Positions 1 to 40,498 of a stretch of DNA of 41,701 nt are shown in pieces. The notes below the pieces were generated by a model, which worked only from the letters and a program-made list of their open reading frames with translations, searched no databases and had not been told where the DNA came from. This DNA is from Candidatus Hydrogenedentes bacterium ADurb.Bin170 (GTDB lineage: Bacteria > Hydrogenedentota > Hydrogenedentia > Hydrogenedentales > CAITNO01): the NCBI GenBank assembly GCA_002070275.1, contig MWCY01000026.1, positions 1 to 41,701 on the forward strand, written 5' to 3'. Each line of letters opens with the position of its first letter. Positions within the stretch are counted from its first letter, which is position 1. The translations under genes and the position numbers were made by a program.

Positions 1-123
1 CTTGTGTAAAATGGTGTGGGGACATTGTGTACTCCTTCGGTTGTTTTGTTGAAAATCTTATTCTACCGAAAAGAGCCGCAATGTCTCCTTTTTTGTTTCT
101 CAATAATTGCGTTTCGAATTTGA

Positions 124-36727: not shown

Positions 36728-36762
36728 AGCGGTCTCTAATCATCCGGATGTATCAGAGCGCT
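36728..36762. repeat. Hairpin between convergent genes
   Basis: AGCG-gt-CTCT (36728-36737) pairs with AGAG-CGCT (36755-36762) around a loop that contains the palindrome CATCCGGATG. It spans the convergent gene ends and overlaps the end of the minus-strand gene. There is no T tract, so any termination role is uncertain. Confidence 0.35.
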
Positions 36763-38981
36763 GTCAGTTCCAGGGAAGACAGTTTGACAGATACTGCTTC
36801 CGTCTTGCACAACGACACTGACATCCGGTACGCAGAGGGCACGGGGACCGGGGCAAGGTGCGCTTTAGCAGGAACAGGTGACGCCTCCGGCTGATTCGGG
36901 ACAGTGGTAAGCAGTGAGCCGGGCACTTCCAGATCAATACTGCAATCCGGTCTCAGAGAATACTTGCCCTGTTCCTGTCCCGCAATTCTCACAATCACTT
37001 CTGTTTCCGTCTGTGTATTCGAAAAATACAGTTGCAGCCGGTAATTCTTTGCCGGATCGGCCAGGGGCAGTGTAATTGTGCCCACAGACTCGACAAGAAC
37101 GTGCTCCCTTTCACCATCAGGCGCCCAGCCTTCATCGAAAAATTGCCGGCCTGTACCTGCCATGCCGCAGCTGTACAGTTTCCACGGAAGACAATTATCA
37201 AGGAGTACTCTTTTTACTCCTTTGCCTGTATAGCTGTTGCCTGTAAAAGTCCATGACGAATCATACCAGGAAAATCCCGATACGGCATATTCGTACAGAG
37301 CCCCTTTACCCCGGTTCGTGTATTCCGACGTGTAAAAATGGCGGATGCGTGGCCTGCTGCCGGGCTGTAAAAGCGATTCTCCGCCGTAGCTGCCTGCAGT
37401 CTCGAGACCTGCACTTTCCAGCAAGGTAGGCGCAATGTCAAGAAGAGATACAGGGCGGTCTGACACTTGAAAGCCTCCGCTTTGCCCCATCGGCTTAAAT
37501 AAAACAAGGGGAATAGCACGCACTTTTTTAGCAAAGCTGCCAAGGGGCGGCTCTGCCGGCTTATTACCGGCACTGTAGTTACCATAATGAATATTGCTGT
37601 TTGTCCACTGCAGACCGTGGTCGCCCACAATCATCAGGGCTGTTCTGTCGTAAATGCCCAATCGCTGCAGCGACCCGGTCATATCTTCGATTAGCTCTGC
37701 CAGTATTTCAGCAATACGACTCACATTTTCACGTGTATCCGGCACTTTCTTTCCGTCGAGATACTGAGGATCATGAAGCCCCTGCAGGTGATAGACAAGA
37801 AAACGCGGCTCCGAAAAGGCAACACGTCTCTGGCTTTTCAGGTCTTTACGAAATATATCTCTATCGAGATTGGCGGGAACATCCATAATAAAGTTTGAGT
37901 AAACAGCGTCTTTGCAGAGGTGCGGCACAGCCTGAAAAAGAGATGTCCAAAGCAGCTGCCGTACCTCTTTGCCGTAATAGGGCGTGAAGTCTTCTCCGTC
38001 GCTTTTGTAATTGTCGGCAAACGATTTCAGAAACTCCGGGCGGTACATACTTTGTGCCAGCGTAAAATAATTGTAAATGCCCACCGAGTACCCGGCATCA
38101 TGCAGCTTCGCCGGAACTGAAAAGGTTTTATAAGCGTTTTGCAGGTAGGCTGTATAGGAGCCTTCATTATTGTAGTGCTGTCCGCTCATGATTGCAGGAA
38201 GAGAACGATGCGTATAATAATCTGTGGCGAGCGCATCCGGATAATACGTAAACCCGGGCAGTTTTTTCGCGTAGTCCGGATTCTTTTCCAGATACTCATT
38301 AAAGTAATCGGACTGGAAAGCGTCAAGGATCAGCAGAATAATGTTTGACCGGCTGGAATAACTGAAGGCATTTCGCCAGCTGAGTGTTATGCTTTCAGAA
38401 GTACCTGTCCCGGCAATACGTTCGCGGGGCTGTGCTACGGAAAAAACCAGATTTCCTGCGGTGAAAAACAAAAAAACGAGAAAAACGTTTTTAAAAAGCC
38501 CTGGCTTTTTTCGGGCGATTCCGAAGCACAACGCCGCCAGGCTCAGCCAGATCAGCCCGTCAAAAGCGCGCCCGTCACGCAGATGAATCTCCAGGGGAGA
38601 ACCGTCAAAAGAGCCGTAATGCCAGCTGAGCAGCTGGCTCTGCACCCAGGTGCTGAGCAAAATGAAGGCAAGCACAGGAATCAGAAAGTTCTTTATGCGG
38701 GAGCCGGAAAAATACAGAATAAAAAAGAGCAGCACGGCTGCCGCCGCTGCTATGCCCGCCAAATAGAGAAGCATGGTACCTGATGTGCTATAAAATTCCT
38801 GCAGATTATTGAGGAATAAAAGCAGCGGCACAGAAACAAGAAGATGCAGCGGCAAGGCAACAGATGCTGCGATCAAATCTGAAAAATTGTATTTATATTC
38901 GCCTCGCCCGGCCTTTTCCTGCACCAGTTCAGTGCATTTTGCAAATTCGGTTGTATTTTTATCCACATCGCTTCTGTTCAT
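36753..38981 (-). CDS. Membrane sulfatase-fold protein (LTA synthase/phosphoglycerol transferase-like)
   Basis: 742 residues from the ATG at 38981 (a GTG two codons upstream is equally possible; neither has a clear ribosome site). Four or five membrane segments lie in the first ~175 residues. The extracellular catalytic domain has the alkaline-phosphatase-superfamily motifs: NIILLILDAFQSDYF (metal Asp), TDYYTHRSLPAIMSG with the likely Thr nucleophile, and MIVGDHGLQW (Asp-His metal pair). This layout matches lipoteichoic acid synthase and the phosphoethanolamine or phosphoglycerol transferases that modify envelope glycolipids and glycans. The substrate is unknown. The C-terminal ~130 residues are an extra beta-rich domain. 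It converges with the GT2-methyltransferase gene, which may act in the same envelope pathway. Confidence 0.82.
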   Translation of the reverse strand: MNRSDVDKNTTEFAKCTELVQEKAGRGEYKYNFSDLIAASVALPLHLLVSVPLLLFLNNLQEFYSTSGTMLLYLAGIAAAAAVLLFFILYFSGSRIKNFLIPVLAFILLSTWVQSQLLSWHYGSFDGSPLEIHLRDGRAFDGLIWLSLAALCFGIARKKPGLFKNVFLVFLFFTAGNLVFSVAQPRERIAGTGTSESITLSWRNAFSYSSRSNIILLILDAFQSDYFNEYLEKNPDYAKKLPGFTYYPDALATDYYTHRSLPAIMSGQHYNNEGSYTAYLQNAYKTFSVPAKLHDAGYSVGIYNYFTLAQSMYRPEFLKSFADNYKSDGEDFTPYYGKEVRQLLWTSLFQAVPHLCKDAVYSNFIMDVPANLDRDIFRKDLKSQRRVAFSEPRFLVYHLQGLHDPQYLDGKKVPDTRENVSRIAEILAELIEDMTGSLQRLGIYDRTALMIVGDHGLQWTNSNIHYGNYSAGNKPAEPPLGSFAKKVRAIPLVLFKPMGQSGGFQVSDRPVSLLDIAPTLLESAGLETAGSYGGESLLQPGSRPRIRHFYTSEYTNRGKGALYEYAVSGFSWYDSSWTFTGNSYTGKGVKRVLLDNCLPWKLYSCGMAGTGRQFFDEGWAPDGEREHVLVESVGTITLPLADPAKNYRLQLYFSNTQTETEVIVRIAGQEQGKYSLRPDCSIDLEVPGSLLTTVPNQPEASPVPAKAHLAPVPVPSAYRMSVSLCKTEAVSVKLSSLELTAL

Positions 38982-38993
38982 AAACACACCAAA

Positions 38994-39022
38994 TTGACTT
39001 GCCGGCCGGAATATGATAGTAT
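38994..39022 (+). promoter_or_regulatory. Promoter of the candidate small RNA
   Basis: TTGACT (38994-38999), a 17-nt spacer and TAGTAT (39017-39022). The start would be near 39029. It overlaps the divergent promoter of the sulfatase-fold gene, so the two units may compete for polymerase. Confidence 0.45.
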
Positions 39023-39040
39023 GTAGATCTGTTTAGTCAA
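39013..39040 (-). promoter_or_regulatory. Promoter of the sulfatase-fold membrane protein
   Basis: On the minus strand TTGACT (39035-39040), a 16-nt spacer and TATCAT (39013-39018). The start would be near 39005, about 25 nt before the ATG. Confidence 0.55.
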
Positions 39041-39150
39041 GATAAAGACAGGTCGTTTGGAAAAGTCATAGCACAAACCTTGTGCACCGTTCGCTGCCAC
39101 CCACAAACACGCATGCCCCACCCTTTTGGCGGACGGTGCACTCTTTTTTT
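39029..39150 (+). ncRNA. Candidate small RNA of about 122 nt
   Basis: No open frame with a ribosome site lies here, but the stretch has a promoter in front and an intrinsic terminator behind, both on the plus strand, and no plus-strand gene follows. The 3' half is a long hairpin whose 34-nt loop has two C-rich patches (CCACCC at 39096-39101 and CCCCACCC near 39116-39123). Such patches could pair with G-rich ribosome-binding sites, as in several known regulatory RNAs. It matches no RNA family that I recognise (not 6S, tmRNA, SRP RNA or RNase P). Confidence 0.45.
39082..39150 (+). terminator. Rho-independent terminator of the candidate small RNA
   Basis: GTGCACCGT-T-CGC (39082-39094) pairs with GCG-G-ACGGTGCAC (39129-39141), 13 positions including one T-G pair, followed directly by TCTTTTTTT (39142-39150). 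On the opposite strand no T tract follows, so it does not serve glyQS. Confidence 0.7.
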
Positions 39151-39196
39151 ATCTGCCGTTTCAGGGAAGCCCGGCTTGCGATAAAAAAGCTGCTCT

Positions 39197-40498
39197 TTAA
39201 AAACAGACCGGCCGGATGGAACACTGCTTTAAAATATATGCCGGGACTTCAGATACAGGCATGCGCACCTGCTCCATACTGTCCCGCTCCCTGATCGTAA
39301 CTGTGTCATTCTCTTTGGTCTCATAATCAATGCAGACACAGTAAGGCGTGCCCACTTCATCCATGCGGCGATACCGCCGTCCGATTGCACCGGCCTGATC
39401 ATAATAAGTGGTAAAGAATCCGCGCCACTTCTTCTCCAGGCCTTCGGCAATTTCCGCCAGACCGTCTTTTTTTACCAAAGGAAGAACAGCTGCTTTAATA
39501 GGCGCCAGTTTCGGATGAAAGCGCATTACCACGCGCATCTCGTCATTCACTGTTTCTTCAGAATAGGCATCACAGAGCACCGCCAAAGTTGTACGATCCG
39601 CCCCGGCAGAGGGTTCAATCACTGTCGGAAAAAAGCGTTCTTTCAGTTCTGCATCAAAGTAACTGAGGTCTTTTCCGGAGTGCTTGCTGTGCTGGGTCAA
39701 GTCGTAACAGCCTCTGTTTGCAAGCCCCTGCAGTTCTCCCCATCCGAAGGGAAAATCATATTCAACATCGATAGTCCGTTTAGAATAATGTGCCAAAGTT
39801 TCTTTGGGATGTTCAAACCATCGCAGTTTATCTTCCTTAAGCCCGAGGTTCAGGTACCACGCCCAGATATCCTTCTGCCAGCGATCAAACCAGAGTTCTT
39901 CCTCTTCTTCTTTGCAGAAGAACTCAATCTCCATCTGTTCAAATTCGCGGCTCCGGAAAATAAAATTCCGGGGATTCACTTCATTGCGGAAACTTTTTCC
40001 CACTTGTGCAATGCCGAAGGGGACCTTGACACGTGTGGAAGAACAGACATCTTTAAAGTCCACGAAAATTGACTGGCAGGTTTCGGGACGCAGATAAGTT
40101 TCCACGCCAGTATCCTCGCTCACCCCCATTTTAGTCCGGAGCATGCTGTTGAATGCCCGTGGCTCGGACAGTTCGCCTCCGCACTCGGGGCAGGTATCCT
40201 GCTCCAGATGATCCTGGCGAAAGCGTTTTTTACACTCTTTGCAGTCCACAAGAATATCATGAAACTGTTCAACATGCCCGCTTGCCTCCCAGACACCGGG
40301 ATGCATAAGGATGCTGGCATCAAGACCCACCACATCATCCCGCGAAAGCACAAAGGTATACCACCAGTGCTCTTTCAGATTACGCTTGAGTTCCACGCCG
40401 AGGGGACCGAAATCCCAGCAGCCGTTGATGCCACCGTAAATGCCGCTGGATTGGAAAATAAAGCCTTTTCGTTTGCACAGACTAACCAGTTTTTCCAC
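39197..40498 (-). CDS. glyQS: Glycyl-tRNA synthetase, single-chain class II (alpha2) type
   Basis: 433 residues. The class II motifs are present: the N-terminal RKGFIFQSSGIYGGINGCWD, motif 1-2 region IAQVGKSFRNEVNPRNFIFR with the ATP-binding arginine, and motif 3 EPSAGADRTTLAVL. A Cys-rich insert (CKECKKRFRQD then CPECGGE) is a zinc-type element. The anticodon-binding domain is at the end (PIKAAVLPLVKKDG, GAIGRRYRRMDEVGTPYCV, RERDSMEQVRM). It charges tRNA-Gly in the cytoplasm and is the homodimeric type, not the separate glyQ/glyS alpha-beta type. AGGAG lies 6 nt before the ATG. No T-box motif is seen in the leader, only a hairpin. Confidence 0.96.
   Translation of the reverse strand: MEKLVSLCKRKGFIFQSSGIYGGINGCWDFGPLGVELKRNLKEHWWYTFVLSRDDVVGLDASILMHPGVWEASGHVEQFHDILVDCKECKKRFRQDHLEQDTCPECGGELSEPRAFNSMLRTKMGVSEDTGVETYLRPETCQSIFVDFKDVCSSTRVKVPFGIAQVGKSFRNEVNPRNFIFRSREFEQMEIEFFCKEEEEELWFDRWQKDIWAWYLNLGLKEDKLRWFEHPKETLAHYSKRTIDVEYDFPFGWGELQGLANRGCYDLTQHSKHSGKDLSYFDAELKERFFPTVIEPSAGADRTTLAVLCDAYSEETVNDEMRVVMRFHPKLAPIKAAVLPLVKKDGLAEIAEGLEKKWRGFFTTYYDQAGAIGRRYRRMDEVGTPYCVCIDYETKENDTVTIRERDSMEQVRMPVSEVPAYILKQCSIRPVCF

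Follow-up and report, generated by a model that had tools for sequence, protein, structure and literature searches.

Does the gap between a sulfatase-fold protein gene and a glycyl-tRNA synthetase-like gene in the window (the whole stretch of 41,701 nt that was analysed) encode a small RNA, and if so, by which part would that RNA act? An initial annotation had proposed at this place an intergenic unit of ~122 nt with a plus-strand promoter, no ORF, a strong terminator and a C-rich loop that might bind Shine-Dalgarno sequences. Judging from the sequence of the unit and of two homologues, the stretch very probably makes a small RNA, whereas the Shine-Dalgarno proposal was not borne out.

Layout and conservation of the unit

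The unit was compared in three genomes, namely the window's own genome (G000), a congener (G001) and a member of another genus of the same family (G004). The features in the window are the following.

36753..38987, minus strand: sulfatase-fold protein gene (PF00884), neighbour common to G001
38994..39022, plus strand: sRNA promoter, -35 TTGACT (38994-38999), 17-nt spacer, -10 TAGTAT (39017-39022)
39040..39013, minus strand: divergent promoter-like site of the sulfatase-fold gene, TTGACT-16-TATCAT, 10/12, overlapping the sRNA -10
39029..39150, plus strand: predicted transcript of ~122 nt, its start put at ~39029 from the position of the -10
39082..39095, plus strand: 5' arm of the hairpin, GTGCACCGTTCGCT
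39096..39127, plus strand: loop of 32 nt, with a 27-nt invariant block at 39096-39122
39128..39141, plus strand: 3' arm of the hairpin, GGCGGACGGTGCAC
39144..39150, plus strand: U7 tract, intrinsic-terminator tail as read from the sequence
39197..40498, minus strand: glycyl-tRNA synthetase-like gene glyS (PF00587, PF03129), neighbour common to G001

The proposed plus-strand promoter stood. It matches the consensus at 9 of 12 positions, with TG ahead of the -10, and its layout is kept in G001 (TTGACC-17-TAGTAT) and in G004 (TTGACA-17-TATAAT, 12/12), the spacer containing GAATAT in all three homologues. The distance from the end of the -10 to the stem is 60 nt in G000 and G001, and 69 nt in G004. 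The number of promoters in 901 bp around the site is not above chance (2, versus 1.0 +/- 1.0 in shuffles); sites of the form TTGACN-16..18-TANNAT are rare, with 16 in 841,701 bases of G000, both strands counted. Of the nine strict sigma-70-like sites listed within the first 442 kb, two make up the overlapping pair at 38994-39040.

Downstream, GTGCACCGTTCGCT pairs with GGCGGACGGTGCAC over 14 bp enclosing the 32-nt loop, and the 3' arm is followed by TC, then by U7. Our terminator scan permits loops of 3-8 nt only, which is why this hairpin is missing from it. The "strong terminator" of the initial annotation is thus right as to its 14-bp stem and U7 tract, and has to be qualified for an unusually long loop and a U-run that is kept in G001 (TTTTTT) but broken, merely U/A-rich, in G004 (ATTTATTATTA). 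The C-rich character of the loop was confirmed: its invariant 27-nt block is GCCACCCACAAACACGCATGCCCCACC, and it holds CCACCC (39097-39102), CCCCACCC (39116-39123), CCCCACC and the palindrome GCATGC. The fold energy of the RNA is unexceptional (z -1.11, 28 of 200 shuffles being equally good). The loop is predicted to be open, with a mean unpaired probability of 0.86-0.88 across the three RNAs.

With a 181-base query, homologues were found in 3 of 40 genomes, G000 counted; relative to G000, identity was 96% over 76 nt in G001, and 82% across the hairpin in G004. Terminator and loop, whose loss in close relatives had been named as the observation that would speak against the unit, are both retained in the congener, and the second genus shares promoter, stem and loop as well. 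Conservation is uneven along the RNA. The invariant block is identical at 27 of 27 positions in every pair of the three genomes, while the 5' segment agrees at only 23/53, 18/53 and 23/53 positions across the three pairs. Stem arms are identical between G000 and G001 (14/14 + 14/14), and match at 11/14 + 11/13 positions between G000 and G004. Standard pairs are found in all 41 of the 41 alignment cells that hold letters, none being broken, and the changes consist of a two-sided one, A-U to G-C, and of two one-sided ones, C-G to U-G and U-G to U-A. Covariation, with three sequences, did not exceed that of shuffles (156 of 500 were as good).

To judge these figures, four-fold sites of two genes serve as a neutral background. 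Identical sites numbered 61 of 154 for glyS (G000/G001), and, for ldtA, 72 of 181 (G000/G001), 45 of 136 (G000/G004) and 55 of 140 (G001/G004). Silent positions are therefore 33-40% identical, close to randomised, so that 27 identical loop bases would not be expected without selection. Taken together, an invariant loop, a diverged 5' part with diverged silent sites, and a compensated stem pair argue that the hairpin is under strong selection.

Search for targets of the loop

Pairing of the loop with ribosome-binding sites was examined on 345 start regions taken from 842 kb of G000, against a background of 8,697 internal windows. The Shine-Dalgarno sequence of this genome is AGGA/GGAG: AGGA was present in 119 and GGAG in 88 of the 345 regions, compared to 6.0% and 6.4% of the internal windows. 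The loop is unfit for such sequences. Its own complements were scarce among the 345 regions (GGGTG 3, GGTGG 1, GTGGG 0, TGGGG 0), and we rejected an anti-Shine-Dalgarno C-rich sRNA on these grounds. The target prediction that the initial annotation had suggested gave no excess over shuffled loops either. Perfect 7-mers between loop and start regions amounted to 16, versus 12.6 +/- 4.6 for shuffled loops (79 of 300 as high), and perfect 8-mers to 6, versus 2.9 +/- 2.0 (28 of 300 as high); a duplex energy of -15 kcal/mol or better was reached at 75 of 183 start regions, versus 85 +/- 12 with shuffled loops. One gene start, at C12:525 (CATGCGTGTT, 10 bp with the loop), was discarded as a target, since 37 of 300 shuffled loops paired equally well.

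The starts of the neighbouring genes did not fare better. For the sulfatase gene, shuffled loops were as good in 42 of 200 cases in G000 and in 6 of 200 in G001, and for glyS in 22 of 200 and 58 of 200, respectively. The G001 sulfatase start is unconvincing despite its 6/200, as the site differs from that of G000.

Longer complementarity was searched for in the phylum set, which comprises 68 Hydrogenedentota genomes (G000 and 67 others, many of them incomplete MAGs). No site with at least 23 of 26 complementary bases, as expected for an extended antisense target, was found on either strand of the 68 genomes. Half-loop 18-mers with up to 3 mismatches, searched in G000, G001 and G004 with the sRNAs themselves excluded, gave 13 matches versus 8 for the reversed control with one half, and 13 versus 1 with the other, whose control differs in CpG content. 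Of these 26 sites, 23 sit in a frame of at least 80 aa on the complementary strand, and on inspection no gene was noticed twice as a target. An identical stretch of 18 bases recurs at G001:C54 and G004:C442 (L094 and L102), within loop-sense frames of 516 and 448 codons that we take, from reading them by eye, to be lysyl-tRNA synthetase; this match was rejected as a target and read as shared coding sequence.

A separate observation made in G001 concerns three dispersed repeats (L078, L084 and L085, on C24, C160 and C179) that have CAACCCACAAACACGCC in common. Thirteen bases of CAACCCACAAACACGCC equal part of the sRNA loop, and the C24 copy runs on as ATTGCCCCAACC, so that it resembles the entire loop. 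G000 has no copy of these repeats within 3 mismatches.

Hfq (PF17209) was found in 0 of the 68 phylum genomes, many of which are incomplete MAGs; in a control, the same profile was recovered in 5 of 14 named known genomes. Hfq may be absent from the phylum Hydrogenedentota altogether. An Hfq-dependent trans-acting sRNA does not fit this count, from which we infer an Hfq-independent action.

Alternatively, it may be that the loop belongs to a real RNA and binds a protein (KH, cold-shock, or another binder of C-rich single strands), the product being a titrating or scaffold RNA. The CCACCC and CCCCACC boxes around a fixed core would then be paired protein contacts. Such a role would account for a block of 27 nt that shows no variation, exceeds the length of a typical seed and carries two similar C-rich boxes, and it agrees with the failure to find a complementary target or Hfq; no candidate protein was found, Hfq being the sole protein looked for. 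We rank base pairing above protein binding and regard the latter as unlikely.

Distribution and gene context

The unit was present in 2 of the 67 other phylum genomes, G001 and G004, and is single-copy in G000. A 26-mer from the middle of the loop, searched with a tolerance of 3 mismatches, was found in 3 of the 68 genomes, in one copy each and with 0 mismatches, and the reversed pattern used as control gave 0 matches in the 68. In the remaining 65, neither the loop pattern nor a strong covariance-model match revealed it; G009 and G014, both congeners of G004, are among the genomes where it was not found. An exact 21-mer hit two records only among 84,980 species genomes (G000 possibly not among them), JAAYJV010000113.1, a MAG of Candidatus Hydrogenedens sp., and SKQZ01000137.1, a MAG of Candidatus Hydrogenedentota bacterium. 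Viral contigs gave no exact match to a 23-mer or a 20-mer, and plasmids and phages gave no match.

A covariance model of the hairpin (R1) was also run on the 68 genomes, with stricter filters and at most 69 candidates scored per genome. Matches at E up to 1 were returned for 28 genomes. The three homologues scored 91-104 bits; the remaining 33 rows stayed at or below 25.1 bits, one weak locus reaching 27.5 bits on its opposite strand. A wider family was rejected upon inspection of 27 of the 33 weak rows, which showed either a hairpin lacking the loop or no hairpin of this type; two weak loci (L032 and L043) hold short fragments of loop sequence. Rfam gave no match at gathering score over the whole window. 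Within 38900-39250 the DnaX frameshift element (RF00382) was the one family matched with E up to 5; this match is on the minus strand, and we ascribe it to chance (13.5 bits for a cut-off of 35, E 1.5). Among the publications listed under Hydrogenedentes or Hydrogenedens, none dealt, by title, with sRNAs of the phylum, and a broader search without the phylum name required had the phylum named in none among the matches listed.

The surroundings of the unit differ among the three genomes. In G001 it occupies the equivalent gap between glyS and the sulfatase gene, and just downstream on the same strand, there as in the window, are only frames overlapping or antisense to glyS. In G004 it lies behind an L,D-transpeptidase gene (PF03734), on a contig that stops 235 nt past the hairpin, and no sulfatase gene is present within the 1.8 kb around it up to that contig end. 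These two gene contexts speak against the unit being the leader, terminator or antisense of one fixed gene. A riboswitch or leader is likewise not indicated: glyS is on the opposite strand in the window and G001, and the G004 contig ends too soon after the hairpin to show a gene of this kind. In G009 and G014, a different coding sequence, which from a reading by eye is presumably a dTDP-glucose dehydratase, starts a few tens of bases past the L,D-transpeptidase gene. The G004 junction is different from that of these congeners. The patchy distribution of the unit may reflect loss or transfer.

Overlap with a divergent promoter of the sulfatase gene, also claimed initially, was found in the window (39040-39013) and was lacking in G001, where the promoter scan gives none toward this gene. 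The overlap raises the question of a cis-antisense or divergent-promoter device, in which the RNA or its transcription would interfere with the overlapping promoter of the sulfatase gene or with a glyS-sulfatase read-through mRNA. The overlapping -10 boxes of the window, the position of the unit between the equivalent two genes in G001, and a glyS-sulfatase gap where the scan reports a single weak minus-strand terminator-like site (39085-39071) count in favour of such a device. It is nevertheless improbable, given the missing G001 promoter, the different upstream gene of the G004 copy with no sulfatase in the stretch examined, and the fact that interference needs no invariant loop.

The end of the G004 contig (G004:C22; L004:1589-1774) is made of a dispersed repeat of ~185 bp, some copies of which match both strands and are thus partly palindromic. 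At least 43 matches were counted in G004, where scoring covered 40 of 347 first-look candidates; G009 had 43, G014 had 21, and G000 and G001 had 0. This is a high-copy, genus-specific element.

The neighbourhood of this repeat, and a junction not seen in the congeners, would suit a DNA element (a cruciform, a single-strand hairpin site or the end of a mobile element) whose promoter and U-tract are coincidental. We give little credence to it: promoter, orientation and a similar spacing are kept in all three genomes, neither G000 nor G001 has the repeat, the unit is single-copy in G000, and phages, plasmids and viral contigs gave no match.

Still, a hairpin followed by U7 between two genes might be an ordinary intrinsic terminator with no further function. 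In the window and G001, however, both flanking genes are on the opposite strand, and a terminator does not need an invariant 27-nt loop, which makes this very improbable.

As to coding potential, the claim that the unit has no ORF holds insofar as none is convincing, and fails to the letter, a GTG frame starting at the first stem base being open in each homologue, with lengths of 70, 44 and 40 aa. A second frame across the hairpin, in G001, is 390 aa long and mostly antisense to glyS; its counterpart in the window has 34 aa, and that in G004 has 41 aa. We read these open frames through the hairpin as by-products of a fixed RNA. That the GTG frame is a short gene, encoding a peptide with RS-PPTNTHAPP, is barely credible in spite of its being open everywhere, because no AGGA/GGAG stands in the 15 bases ahead of it in any of the three, its residues diverge past the loop, and its 9 loop codons show 0 silent changes, compared to four-fold sites 33-40% identical elsewhere.

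Proposed mode of action and known systems

By its sequence alone, the unit has what is generally asked of an sRNA gene: its own promoter, its own transcript end, no gene-like ORF, and a position that is not the leader of one gene. We hold, with moderate confidence, that it is a free-standing, Hfq-independent sRNA gene acting in trans via its loop, most likely by base pairing. The vegetative-type promoter would yield an RNA of ~122 nt, ending in a hairpin of 14-16 bp with a U-rich tail. This hairpin would end the transcript and also form a rigid support on which the 27-nt loop stays open. The loop would be the working part, making the first contact and pairing, independently of Hfq, with one or several RNAs. 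Transcription, trans action and base pairing are all deduced here.

A more specific proposal, which we put forward only tentatively and hold to be rather doubtful, is that the RNA represents a new Hydrogenedentota sRNA family, independent of Hfq, with an obligate loop of unusual length whose 27 nt would be read as a unit by a dedicated RNA-binding protein or through loop-loop contact, rather than through a short seed directed at ribosome-binding sites. Two copies could kiss through the palindrome GCAUGC. Cofolding as a homodimer came out 7-10 kcal/mol better than two monomers, an uncontrolled figure that was given no weight.

A loop that is frozen where silent sites are nearly randomised offers, for a phylum in which no Hfq is recognisable, a clean entry to the study of post-transcriptional control. 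It very probably marks the sRNA as a working regulator whose general type is familiar. Being short and present in one copy, the sRNA lends itself easily to experiments.

Two known systems are worth comparing. B11 of Mycobacterium abscessus is a 6C-type sRNA, and 6C was reportedly the subject of a study by Mai et al. in 2019. B11 has two C-rich loops that are interchangeable against a G6 tract, and mycobacteria have no identified Hfq or ProQ (PMC10470900). The present unit resembles B11 by a C-rich loop borne on a hairpin, by an Hfq-less setting and by a loop that could bind a G-rich 5' UTR, and it differs by its single 32-nt loop of mixed sequence, with 27 nt fixed, and by its phylum. Membership in the 6C type was rejected: no Rfam family matched at gathering score, and a single main hairpin is present here, instead of two with C-run loops.

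In RNAIII of Staphylococcus aureus, the C-rich loops 7 and 13 touch the targets first, and repression of coa does not need Hfq (PMC2837412). Both RNAs present a C-rich hairpin loop, and the present one, judging from the missing Hfq, would likewise not need this chaperone. RNAIII has many hairpins, and its loops contact ribosome-binding sites, in contrast to the one main hairpin found here, with a loop unfit for Shine-Dalgarno sequences. The unit is real and conserved, and very probably represents a novel sRNA family, though one whose general kind is known.
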